NCBI RefSeq assembly: GCF_001424025.1
Contig: NZ_LMPZ01000002.1
Location: forward strand, 62,001-126,000
Direction: 5' to 3'
From: Brevundimonas sp. Leaf363
GTDB lineage: Bacteria > Pseudomonadota > Alphaproteobacteria > Caulobacterales > Caulobacteraceae
DNA: 64,000 bases
The position numbers were made by a program, and so were the translations under genes. Shown in pieces: positions 44,017 through 47,338 of this stretch (the first letter of the stretch is position 1; every line of letters starts with the position of its first letter). The notes below the pieces were generated by a model. The model worked only from the letters and a program-made list of their open reading frames with translations, did no database searches and was not told the DNA's origin.

Positions 44017-44961
44017 TCAGTTCACCGAGACGCTGCGCCAATAGTCCAGGCGGCGCAGGAAGGCGGCCGGGTCCTTGGGCGTGACCAGCTTGGATGGGTC
44101 GTGGAAAACGCGGTCGTGCAGGCGGGTCAGGGTGAAGCGCAGGGCGGCGGCTTCGCCCAGGCGCGGCAGGGCTTCGCGCTCAAGCGGCGACAGCGGGCGG
44201 ACAGCCTCATAGCCGCGCTGGAAGGCGGCGAGGGCCGTCTCATCCGGCCGGCCTTCGCCGTCGAAGCCCCAGGCCGACAGGGCGATGGCCAGGTCGTAGG
44301 CATAGGCGCCGTTGCAGGCGAAATAGAAATCGATCACCCCTGACACGGCGCCCTGGTCGAACAGGATGTTATCGGGAAAATAGTCGGCGTGGATGGGACC
44401 AGAGGGAAGGTCGTCCTTGAACGGATCACCCAGCCGCTTCAGCCCTGCCTCGACCTGATCCAGCAGCACGCGATCGACGCCCGACGCGCCCGCCGCGCAG
44501 CGGTCGGCCAGCCGCCGCCACATCGCTGGCCCCACGGGGTTCTCGCGCGTGCGTCCAAAGCCCTGACCGGCCTGATGCAGCCGCGCCAGCACAGCGCCTG
44601 CCGCCGTCTGGTCGGCCGGCGACGGCGCGCGCAGCCACGCCCCCTCGCGCCACTCGATGACCGAGGCCGAGCGCCCGTTCAGCGTTCCGATCCAGCCGCC
44701 CTCGCGATCCGGGATCGGCTGTGGGGCCGGAAAACCCTTCAGCGCCAGCCAGTCGGTGAGGCCCAGGCAGAAGGGCAGGGACGCCGCGTCCGTCCGCCCC
44801 TCGAACAGGGTCAGGACGAAACGGCCACGGTCGGTCTCCATACGGTAGTTGGTGTTCTCCACCCCCTCGGCGATGGGCGACAGCGCCATCAGGTCGCCGA
44901 CGTCATAGCCCTCCAGAAAGGCCTCGGCCTGGGCGTTTGATACGGGAGTGAAGACAGCCAC
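44017..44961 (-). CDS. thrB: Homoserine kinase (ThrB, APH-fold)
   Basis: 314-residue kinase of the choline-kinase-like (APH) fold that phosphorylates homoserine, the first dedicated step to threonine. Motifs are ENTNYRMETDRGRFVLTLFE, the Brenner loop IHADYFPDNILFD and the metal-binding GVIDFYFACNGAYAYDL. This fold is the alphaproteobacterial form, unrelated to the GHMP-type ThrB of E. coli. It begins 13 bases after the thrA stop, so it is read from the same attenuated transcript. Threonine synthase is not in this window. Confidence 0.95.
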   Translation of the reverse strand: MAVFTPVSNAQAEAFLEGYDVGDLMALSPIAEGVENTNYRMETDRGRFVLTLFEGRTDAASLPFCLGLTDWLALKGFPAPQPIPDREGGWIGTLNGRSASVIEWREGAWLRAPSPADQTAAGAVLARLHQAGQGFGRTRENPVGPAMWRRLADRCAAGASGVDRVLLDQVEAGLKRLGDPFKDDLPSGPIHADYFPDNILFDQGAVSGVIDFYFACNGAYAYDLAIALSAWGFDGEGRPDETALAAFQRGYEAVRPLSPLEREALPRLGEAAALRFTLTRLHDRVFHDPSKLVTPKDPAAFLRRLDYWRSVSVN

Positions 44962-44974
44962 GGCGGGGGTCCGA

Positions 44975-46732
44975 TCAGGTCAGGCCGGCTTCGGCGCGCC
45001 GTGCACGGACGATCTCGCCGAGATCGGCCATCAGGCTCTCCGTCGTCGCCCAGCGACCGGCGCCGCGCCCCTTGCAGCGCCAGACCCGGCCGTCGGCCCC
45101 GTAGACCTTCAGCGCATTGCCCTCGCCCCGCAGCTCCAGGAACAGGGCGTCGTCCTGGTCCGTCAGCGAGACGGAGGCGTCCAGCTCGCCGTTCTCGAGG
45201 CGGCGGCAGGCGCCGATCTGGCGGACGGCCGGACTGGCGTCGGTCGTTTCCGACAGGTGGTCGCGTGACACGGCGGCAAGCTCCGGCGAGCGGCCGAAAG
45301 CTTCGTAGGACAGCAGGCGCACCTTGGCGGCCGCGTCCAGGCCTTCCAGATCGGCCGAAGGATCCTCCTCGGCGAAGCCGGCGGCGCGGGCGTCGGCCAG
45401 GGCCTCGGGGAAGGCGGCGCCTTCGCCCAGACGTTCCAGCATGAAGTTCACCGTGCCGTTCAGCACCGCCTCGAAGGCCACGACCTGACCGGCCTGACGC
45501 GCCGCGCGCATCGTCTCGATCATCGGCGCGCCGCCGCCGACGGAAGCCGACCAGTAAAGGCGCCGGCCATGGGCGTCCGCGAGGGCCTCGAGGCCCGACG
45601 GATCGCGGCTGACGGCCTGCTTGTTGGCGCTGGCCACGTCGCAGCCGGCTTCCAGGGCGGCGCGGATCAGGGCGTGCCCGGCCTCGCCCTCGCTCATGGC
45701 TTCCAGCACGATGTCGGGCTTGCGGGCCAGCAGGGCCTCGCGATCGTCCGTAAACAGATCGGCGGGGCAATCGATGTCGCGCGGCTTGGAAGGATCGCGC
45801 ACCAGCACGCCTACCACCTGATAGCGCGGATCGACCAGCAGGCGCGTCAGCACCCCGCCGCCGACCACGCCGCACCCTGCCACCGCCACCTTCAGCGGTT
45901 GAAGACGCGGCGCCGGGCCGGGAGGCGCCGAACGACGGCCGATGACGGTCGAATCGACCCGGTCCAGCGCCGCGACCTCGATCTCCACCCCTCGCTGTTC
46001 GCCCAGATCGATGGCGTCACGCTGCACCAGCGAGCCGCCGAGGCGGCGCGCCACGTCCCAGGACGCACGGCGATAGCGCAGGGCCGGGGCCGTCTGGTCG
46101 TTGGGATCGTGGTCGTAGAGCCCGTCGACGTCCTTCACCAGCCGCACCGACGACAGGCCCAGCTCGGCCGCCAGGAACACGGCCGTCAGGTCCGAGCCGC
46201 CGCGACCCAGCAGGGCGACCTTGCCGTCCGGGCGGATGGCGCCGAAGCCGGGCACGATCACCGCCTGATGCCGGTCCAGCGCCTGCTTCAGGTGATCGGG
46301 CCGAAGGCCGCAGGGGCGGGCGTGCTCGGCCGGACCCTCGGCGACGATGCCGAGTTCGCGCACCGACAGGGCGCAGGCGTCCAGCCCGACGCGGTCGCAG
46401 GCGATGGCCACCAGGGCCGCGGCCTGCTCTTCCCCCAGCGCCACATAGCCGGGCAGCAGGTCGTTGGAATGGGCGAGGCCCAGTCCGCGCGCGTCGGCCA
46501 GCATCCGGTCGGTGTCGCCCGAAAAGGCAGACACCACCGCCACGACCTTCTTGCCCTGCCGCACCTGGGCGTAGACGGCCGAGGCGACCAGGGCGCTCTC
46601 GGCGTGGCCGCGCAGGATGGAGCTGCCGAACTTCATCACCACCGTCTCCTGCCCGGCGAAGGCGAAGGCGGTGGGGCTGAGCGGCTTTTCACTGGATCGT
46701 TTGTCGGCTTCGACGACGGCGAGGGCGGGCAT
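44975..46732 (-). CDS. thrA: Bifunctional aspartate kinase-homoserine dehydrogenase without ACT domains
   Basis: 585-residue fusion. Aspartate kinase occupies about 30-268 (VMKFGSSIL, LLGRGGSDLTA, VKDVDGLYDHDP). After a short linker (about 269-279) comes homoserine dehydrogenase (about 280-585), with the NAD motif KVAVAGCGVVGGGV and VNANKQAV-like VASANKQAVSRD, ending with no tail beyond the catalytic domain. E. coli ThrA is about 820 residues because two ACT domains lie between these parts. That sensor is missing here. The gene is preceded by a Thr leader and attenuator, so feedback is probably transcriptional. Confidence 0.94.
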   Translation of the reverse strand: MPALAVVEADKRSSEKPLSPTAFAFAGQETVVMKFGSSILRGHAESALVASAVYAQVRQGKKVVAVVSAFSGDTDRMLADARGLGLAHSNDLLPGYVALGEEQAAALVAIACDRVGLDACALSVRELGIVAEGPAEHARPCGLRPDHLKQALDRHQAVIVPGFGAIRPDGKVALLGRGGSDLTAVFLAAELGLSSVRLVKDVDGLYDHDPNDQTAPALRYRRASWDVARRLGGSLVQRDAIDLGEQRGVEIEVAALDRVDSTVIGRRSAPPGPAPRLQPLKVAVAGCGVVGGGVLTRLLVDPRYQVVGVLVRDPSKPRDIDCPADLFTDDREALLARKPDIVLEAMSEGEAGHALIRAALEAGCDVASANKQAVSRDPSGLEALADAHGRRLYWSASVGGGAPMIETMRAARQAGQVVAFEAVLNGTVNFMLERLGEGAAFPEALADARAAGFAEEDPSADLEGLDAAAKVRLLSYEAFGRSPELAAVSRDHLSETTDASPAVRQIGACRRLENGELDASVSLTDQDDALFLELRGEGNALKVYGADGRVWRCKGRGAGRWATTESLMADLGEIVRARRAEAGLT

Positions 46733-46769
46733 GGTGTGAGCTTTCGGGCGGTGGGGATGGGGTGAAATG

Positions 46770-46800
46770 AAAAACCCCGCTCGGCGGACCGGGCGGGGTT
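46770..46800 (-). terminator. thr attenuator terminator
   Basis: On the minus strand AACCCCGC pairs with GCGGGGTT (8 bp; inner CGG/CCG can extend it) around a GC-rich loop, followed by TTTTT, an intrinsic terminator. It starts about 30 nt after the leader-peptide stop and ends 37 nt before the thrA ATG, exactly where an attenuator belongs. Part of its 5' arm (CCCGCCCG, 46797-46790) is complementary to the leader mRNA at 46847-46840. Confidence 0.9.
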
Positions 46801-46829
46801 CGGGTTTGTGCGGCGTCTTCAGGTGCGCG

Positions 46830-46892
46830 CTAAACTCGTCCCGCCCGTCTGGGCATGGTGGTGATGGTGGTTCCGGTTCCGGTGGTAATCAT
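46830..46892 (-). CDS. thrL: thr operon leader peptide
   Basis: 20-codon open frame, MITTGTGTTITTMPRRAGRV then TAG. Seven of codons 3-12 are ACC (Thr) and two are Ile, like the E. coli thr leader (Thr and Ile codons). The antiterminator segment CGGGCGGG (46847-46840) covers codons 16-18 and is perfectly complementary to the 5' arm of the downstream terminator. If ribosomes stall on Thr codons the segment is free and can pair, blocking the terminator. If they reach the stop codon they cover it and termination occurs. The Shine-Dalgarno is weak (GGGGCG). Confidence 0.85.
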   Translation of the reverse strand: MITTGTGTTITTMPRRAGRV

Positions 46893-47146
46893 GCCGAAAC
46901 GCCCCGCGCCGATGAGCGAGAGGGACGAAAGGCCGGCGATGATCGAGCGCTGCTGCACAGGCTGGGATCCGGTTGCGATGGCCTAAGGGTGGGCCGGGTG
47001 ACGGCGATACGTCAACCCTGTCAGCATGAATTTTTCGTTGAGGGCGTCTGATGGATGACCTTGACCCCGTCGCCGCGCCATTACCGCCACGGTCGGCACG
47101 ATTTTTCCCCCTTGACGATCGCGGCTGGTTTCCTCAGTTTAAAGAC

Positions 47147-47260
47147 ACTCATCAAGACCGGCTGAGGGATTAGGCCCTTTGACGCCGGGGCAACCATCGG
47201 GTTCCGCCCGAAACGGTGCCAACTCCTGCGGGGGTCCTTCGGGGTCCGCGAGAGATGAGT
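47147..47260 (+). ncRNA. SAM-I (S-box) riboswitch upstream of metX
   Basis: S-adenosylmethionine riboswitch core. Closing helix P1 is ACTCATC (47147-47153) with GATGAGT (47254-47260). Inside are CTGAGGGATTAGGCCC with GACGCCGGGGCAACC (the P2/K-turn region and J2/3) and the classic 3' core GGTGCCAACTCCTGC (47215-47229). The order is that of SAM-I rather than SAM-II, the class usual for alphaproteobacterial met genes. It lies about 65-80 bases before the metX start. No T-rich terminator is seen, so control is probably on translation (GGCGCC-type pairing near the start) or Rho. TTGACG at 47112-47117 may be the -35 element. Confidence 0.85.
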
Positions 47261-47338
47261 GGAGCGCCGGTTCACGGCGGCGCCCCACGATCTGTCACCG
47301 CATCGAGCTCTTGGCGAGCCGGAATGATGCGGACGACG

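Follow-up and report, generated by a model that had tools for sequence, protein, structure and literature searches.

The stretch from 46958 to 46770 on the minus strand of the window (the whole 64,000-nucleotide stretch of Brevundimonas sp. Leaf363 DNA analysed here) is proposed, with a probability of about 0.9, to be a ribosome-mediated transcription attenuator that would let the polymerase reach thrA-thrB only when charged tRNA-Thr is scarce. This interpretation, put forward earlier by a sequence-only reading of the same DNA, is supported by a threonine-rich leader, complementary segments and a terminator in 32/32 distinct leaders, and by these sequence tests the element would be a genus-wide threonine attenuator.

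Layout and conservation of the thrA leader

The features of the locus are collected in Table 1. The sequence-only reading had described a 20-codon ORF with a run of Thr codons, an exact complementarity between CGGGCGGG and CCCGCCCG and an intrinsic terminator 37 nt before thrA, and all three were found in place. The ORF (translation MITTGTGTTITTMPRRAGRV, then the stop) carries Thr at codons 3, 4, 6, 8, 9, 11 and 12, and seven Thr within 10 codons are unique to this one among the 746 short ORFs (8-70 codons) of the window. The terminator stem is formed by 46800-46793 with 46780-46773 and is followed by a T run to 46770, leaving 37 nt before the thrA start. A protector hairpin predicted after the Thr codons had been overlooked by that reading; with it, all four classical attenuator segments are present. 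A GCGCGC motif stands at 46830-46825, at or directly after the leader stop, and is the same in many Brevundimonas leaders; it is perhaps an inner stem of the antiterminator.

Table 1. Coordinates of the leader element, its neighbouring features and an asd leader from another genome (window positions unless a genome and contig are given)
Feature	Position	Strand	Details
Promoter-like stretch	46986..47015	-	TTGAC 47015-47011 and CACCCT 46991-46986
Leader ORF	46830..46958	-	42 codons + TAG, GTG start, VQQRSIIAGLSSLSLIGAGRFGMITTGTGTTITTMPRRAGRV
ORF of the sequence-only reading	46830..46892	-	20 codons, from an internal ATG of the leader frame
Regulatory codons	46857..46886	-	7 Thr (ACC) + 1 Ile (ATC) within 10 codons
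Segment 1	46851..46854	-	GCCC; partner GGGC 46846-46843, predicted protector hairpin
Segment 2	46840..46847	-	CGGGCGGG, within leader ORF
Leader stop	46830..46832	-	TAG
Segment 3	46790..46797	-	CCCGCCCG; pairs segment 2, part of terminator 5' arm
Intrinsic terminator, segments 3:4	46770..46800	-	AACCCCGC ... GCGGGGTT
thrA	44975..46732	-	aspartokinase-homoserine dehydrogenase (AK-HSD) fusion, 585 aa; Pfam AA_kinase, NAD_binding_3, Homoserine_dh
thrB	44017..44961	-	APH-type homoserine kinase; TIGR00938 thrB_alt 324.4 bits, cut-off 255.9
SAM riboswitch of divergent metX-metZ operon	47146..47261	+	RF00162, 83.5 bits, gathering score 44.4
Thr/Lys-rich leader before asd paralog (L125)	G428:C9:933024-933157	-	

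The 32 leaders compared are stretches upstream of fusion genes from which exact duplicates over the aligned part were removed; L036, whose contig begins 43 bases before the gene, was left out. The 20-codon ORF probably represents the downstream (3') half of a longer leader of 42 codons beginning at the conserved GTG 46958, since this GTG is in frame and at a fixed distance after the conserved TTGAC. An ATG or GTG was found 57-67 nt after the start of TTGAC in 31/32 leaders (52-67 nt searched), the exception being L043 with an aligned TTG, and the ATG/GTG codons counted in that interval share the frame of the leader in 33/33 cases. Leader ORF lengths range from 114 to 171 nt in eleven values, each a multiple of 3 (for L043, a downstream in-frame GTG was used as start for length and for Shine-Dalgarno-like pairing). 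The Shine-Dalgarno-like duplex of the window is -5.5 kcal/mol at the internal ATG versus -3.3 kcal/mol at GTG 46958, and the means over the leaders are -3.6 kcal/mol for upstream starts (n=32) versus -1.1 kcal/mol for internal ATGs (n=31). Either start would place the ribosome on the Thr run.

The TTGAC lies 165-232 nt before the leader stop in 32/32 distinct leaders and is followed by a CACCCT-like stretch in most leaders inspected, and a putative transcription start is placed at about 46980-46970. The earlier worry over a weak Shine-Dalgarno sequence and an undefined promoter is largely answered by the conserved TTGAC and start, except that a promoter scan gave no sigma-70 consensus promoter. 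As for the encoded peptide, 423 of 1828 changed codons in 177 leader pairs were synonymous (23%) compared with 29% expected from random single changes, that is, no synonymous bias in the leader frame. The frame is kept while the peptide itself shows no trace of selection, which would be the usual pattern for a leader.

All 32 leaders share a Thr-rich frame with the end motif MPxRAGRV, MPxRAGTG or similar, followed by the terminator, and the distance from the last Thr codon to the stop is exactly 9 codons in 29 of them and 7-8 codons in the other three. Attenuation by a signal other than mainly threonine, sensed through Ile, Gly or Met codons or through nascent-peptide arrest by a metabolite, is improbable: the last 25 codons do contain Ile (0-3) as well as Gly (3-7), and threonine is the precursor of isoleucine, but Thr accounts for 5-9 of these codons in 32/32 leaders at a near-constant distance to the stop, and the peptide itself shows no sign of selection.

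A covariance model built from the Brevundimonas leaders (R1) was run on 131 Brevundimonas genomes. Of these, 90 carry AK-HSD fusions, 91 genes or pieces in total, and the element was placed 37-267 nt upstream of 88 of them. Two of the misses, G102 and G240, are contig ends, and the G102 element was found at the start of another contig; G236 holds the one fusion in the genus truly without the element. Among the 41 Brevundimonas genomes lacking a fusion, no match of at least 40 bits was obtained (0/41) and six gave matches of 26.8-29.5 bits. Strong matches are confined to fusion-bearing genomes and, in all but two cases, lie directly before the fusion gene. In the opposite direction, metX adjoins 37 of the 40 leader-bearing loci with enough flank (some of them copies from one genome), the exceptions being L042-L044. 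Seven weak matches (L085-L091, 30.5-42.1 bits) were considered as second copies of the element and rejected; they resemble gene ends with terminators, and none of the seven has a 5-Thr ORF.

A lack of conservation in relatives had been named as grounds for discarding the attenuator; leader and complementarity are conserved in all 32 distinct leaders. The suggested search for thrL-like ORFs before thrA of relatives succeeded across the Brevundimonas fusions but not before five fusions of other genera (L045-L049). An ORF test for 5 Thr in 10 codons was negative at all five, although it also overlooked two true Brevundimonas leaders, L010 and L011; the covariance model, which gives those two 128 bits, matched none of the five at E up to 0.1. 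The same distribution bears on a very improbable explanation in which the leader frame is the gene of a working small protein and the terminator belongs to that gene, the thrA promoter lies downstream and the Thr run is an accident of composition. Such an arrangement would find room in the 37 nt between T run and thrA, and the transcription start is itself inferred; on the other hand, frame, Thr run and spacing are kept with no synonymous bias, and strong matches are limited to genomes with the fusion, nearly always directly before it.

Predicted folds and the proposed switch

A ribosome covers 12 nt from the start of its A-site codon. With this footprint assumed, a ribosome stalled at the final Thr codon would occlude segment 1, its edge lying just short of segment 2, and the RNA from there to segment 3 is predicted to fold into 2:3 in 32/32 leaders, while a ribosome at the stop codon leaves the 3:4 terminator as the predicted fold, again in 32/32. 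When segments 1 and 2 are both free, they are predicted to form a hairpin with a stem of 3 bp or more in 32/32 leaders (mean -7.4 kcal/mol), although this protector is displaced by a few bases in some of them. Under the assumed footprint, the geometry of the leader fits a switch governed by the position of the ribosome. Once segment 4 is present with the ribosome stalled, the minimum-energy fold holds at least 6 pairs of 2:3 in 28/32 leaders and not in the remaining four.

For the 2:3 antiterminator helix, pairing holds in 98.0% of 256 cells versus 34-64% for slid versions, and the RNAalifold consensus fold includes 2:3 unprompted. No covariation was found in the alignment of the 32 leaders, where no pair changed on both sides and the 2:3 pairs are near-invariant. 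As judged from this alignment, the structure is carried by conservation and not by compensation; segments 2 and 3 have two partners each and hardly any variation. The folding energy of the whole leader is ordinary (z -1.03, 36/200 shuffles as good), and that of its 3' part lies below most shuffles (z -2.36, 5/200). A simple terminator scan, weak alone, gave 1 site versus a mean of 0.5 in shuffles; the terminator hairpin and T run are aligned in all 32 leaders.

In the proposed mechanism, transcription would begin at about 46980-46970 and the ribosome at GTG 46958. When threonine is plentiful, the ribosome would reach the TAG and cover segment 2, so that the 3:4 terminator forms. When threonine is scarce, it would stall on the ACC run and cover segment 1, so that segment 2 stays exposed and pairs with segment 3 ahead of the synthesis of segment 4, pre-empting the terminator. 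In RNA that is not translated, 1:2 and 3:4 would both form, with termination as the outcome. The terminated leader, of about 200 nt from the inferred start, might also act in trans as a small RNA in the manner of rnTrpL of Sinorhizobium. Such an additional role is unlikely: the trp leader offers an alphaproteobacterial precedent in the text available from that report (PMC10117765), and the expected length would suit it, against which stands the lack of any sign of selection on the peptide.

One enzyme apparently under two RNA switches

A Pfam search of thrA at E up to 1e-3 found no ACT domain, and the top NCBIfam alignments do not extend into the regulatory regions of either enzyme (AK 3-231 of 407, HSD 3-323 of 430). 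Given this result, the proposed switch may be the main feedback control of thrA by threonine. The near relatives of thrA are 16 loci of 72-82% identity, 15 from Brevundimonas and one from 'alpha proteobacterium L41A'. No SAM riboswitch was detected in the thrA leader; the only RF00162 match above cut-off in the window is the one upstream of metX, on the other strand. As listed, the metX ORF starts at GTG 47216 and overlaps this riboswitch, and its true start is probably an ATG near 47327, since the family match begins only at residue 69.

The met operon is where the homoserine dehydrogenase of the sampled fusion-less genomes was found. Of the 35 stand-alone HSD matches counted, 14 were fetched, two from fusion genomes (G117, G189) and 12 from genomes without a fusion. 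All 14 follow metX and metZ with a SAM riboswitch before metX, and this SAM-riboswitch metX-metZ-HSD operon is present in 12/12 of the sampled genomes without a fusion. G066 and G246, with possibly longer HSDs, have the same met operon and riboswitch and no leader. A SAM riboswitch also precedes the met-operon fusions of G236 and of G009, which belongs to another genus (RF00162 loci: the window, L104-L117, L172 and L173). In G236 (L116, G236:C8:2500-10500) the fusion lies directly downstream of metZ with overlapping stop and start and has no Thr leader; it is possibly an intermediate state. As regards Thr leaders at stand-alone HSDs, the ORF scan found none before 12 of them, and the best model score there was 17.1 bits (L105); wider stretches contain a handful of 5-Thr ORFs, which lie on the complementary strand or at a distance from the gene starts. 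At thrC of the same genome as the window, no 5-Thr ORF lies upstream in gene orientation and one lies downstream.

In 11/12 stand-alone HSDs inspected (L104-L113, L115), a stub of about 100 residues precedes the HSD domain. In profile-profile comparison, the stub profile, built from 12 rows of which one (L114) is evidently misread, aligns with the N-terminal part of the kinase in the fusion (probability 95.7, E 9.5e-9). BLASTP of one met-operon HSD gave an AK remnant match at E 2e-5, and tblastn found no AK remnant in the 12 met-operon HSDs. The stub may be what is left of a kinase that eroded within an HSD fusion. A quick HSD-domain tree unites the Thr-leader fusions and G236 in one group (support 96), with the met-operon HSDs next to it (90); the fusion of G009 branches outside both (97), and the ordinary HSDs, from six other genera, are distant (100); exact positions are unsure, with a long-branch warning that includes G236, G009 and L114.

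With the HSD of all 12 sampled fusion-less genomes located in the metX-metZ operon behind a SAM riboswitch, it seems that control of a single enzyme has passed from one RNA switch to another. The simplest reading is that an ancestral fusion stood in the SAM-controlled met operon and that one line kept the kinase, moved out and gained the Thr attenuator. There is about an even chance that the rewiring ran in full as follows: an ACT-less fusion was ancestral under SAM control, in one line its kinase shrank to the stub and SAM control persisted, and the other line moved out and acquired a threonine attenuator de novo. The kinase-keeping line would have moved mostly opposite the met operon, together with thrB, and the attenuator would have taken over the feedback otherwise provided by the ACT domains that it lacks. 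A probable origin of the element is within Brevundimonas, at the time when the AK-HSD fusion left, or was copied from, the SAM-riboswitch met operon. According to the match list, nine genomes hold both the fusion and a stand-alone HSD. E. coli has ThrA and MetL, which the two genes of such genomes would resemble; if the rewiring is true, these genomes would represent a second invention of the ThrA/MetL division of labour.

As far as sequence comparison goes, few examples would show so clearly how a single enzyme can come under either of two RNA switches. Having this enzyme under a SAM riboswitch in some species of the genus and under a putative threonine attenuator in others makes the gain and exchange of RNA regulation traceable across related species, and it suggests a trade-off between allosteric ACT domains and RNA-level control.

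Relation to known threonine and alphaproteobacterial leaders

When the model was run on 385 genomes of the class, three matches were obtained beyond the window's own genome, and the best of these (L125) is a Thr/Lys-rich ORF with a terminator before an asd paralog; no leader was identified at the other two. In the 30 asd loci fetched as best matches (170 of 190 genomes gave an asd match), a Thr/Lys-rich short ORF lies upstream of 8/13 close paralogs, defined by 54% identity or more, and of 1/17 others; on the opposite strand it was found at 0/30. One asd leader scores 43.9 bits with the model and the other eight range from 33.9 down to 9.4 (leader loci L125, L140, L141, L143, L147-L151 and L156). 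Hairpins follow the leader ORFs in those inspected, some without a clear T run, and in several asd leaders GCGCGC stands directly before the stop. The asd leader is likely a second, separate attenuator. The text available from a Sinorhizobium meliloti study describes SEP5, a small ORF that contains six codons for Thr and three for Lys and lies in the 5'-UTR of a gene called 'aspartate dehydrogenase', which its authors propose as a possible leader peptide (PMC10117765). SEP5 resembles the Brevundimonas leader as an alphaproteobacterial Thr-rich sORF before an aspartate-pathway gene and differs from it in combining Thr with Lys and, in the text at hand, in having no terminator logic described (PMC10117765). 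SEP5 and the asd leaders may be equivalent.

The closest design is that of E. coli thrL (NC_000913.3; RF00506), which likewise has a Thr-rich leader ORF, a GC segment at the ORF end and a terminator before an AK-HSD fusion gene. The sequence-only reading had left open whether the Brevundimonas element evolved independently or was transferred; a separate origin is favoured by the non-enteric coding part and the lack of a Thr_leader match, though the leader alone may have been transferred. That an enteric thrL attenuator was transferred to Brevundimonas and then diverged is improbable. The layout is the same, and the model built from Brevundimonas alone aligns to thrL, finding it in a 401-base E. 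coli piece with 36.1 bits (E 7.5e-8 in 36 kb). However, the same model ranks one alphaproteobacterial asd leader higher, so that shared Thr codons and a terminator can suffice for a match; judged by these scores, the thrL match shows shared design and not descent. The fusion is also not enteric-like, its HSD domain having no tblastn match in E. coli thrA at 1e-5 and its ThrA equivalog score being 133.7 versus a cut-off of 726, and the five fusions of other genera have no such leader. The earlier description of a non-enteric thrA fusion beside an APH-type thrB is borne out by this absent tblastn match and by the above-cut-off TIGR00938 score.

Rfam RF00506 Thr_leader was rejected as the family of the window element, with no match in 46600-47300 at E up to 10; a Trp_leader match there, of 15.1 bits versus a cut-off of 41, was taken as chance. 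Across the class, Thr_leader gave no match above cut-off in 289 genomes and no match in the window's own genome. Below cut-off, at E up to 1e-3, it matched 48/289 genomes and also the control Caulobacter vibrioides; 8 of 10 such loci fetched lack a short ORF with 5 Thr in 10 codons, and L133 and L136 have some. According to the accessible text of a 2013 survey, which included four Caulobacterales genomes and relied on the Rfam models of its day, amino-acid attenuators may originate in gammaproteobacteria and have undergone very few transfers (PMC3766115). Since the Brevundimonas element lies outside the Rfam Thr model, such surveys would likely miss it.

In comparison with E. coli thrL, the Brevundimonas leader frame is about twice as long and starts with GTG, and its locus differs in a fusion without ACT domains found, an APH-type thrB and a position opposite a SAM-riboswitch met operon. 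Ribosome-mediated attenuation is known in Caulobacteraceae from ilvBN of Caulobacter crescentus (Tarleton 1994, as cited in the available text of PMC4117421), a system that uses Ile/Val codons before an ilv operon, unlike the Thr codons before thrA here. Alphaproteobacterial attenuation with a leader peptide is likewise represented by Sinorhizobium trpL/rnTrpL, where, in the available text, a leaderless 14-codon ORF serves a trp operon (PMC10117765). The literature searched, partly available as text and including the Vitreschak 2004 survey as known through citations, contained no recognised report of a Thr attenuator in Caulobacterales. Relative to that literature, the mechanism is a known one, and what is new is the lineage and the apparently separate origin of the element.
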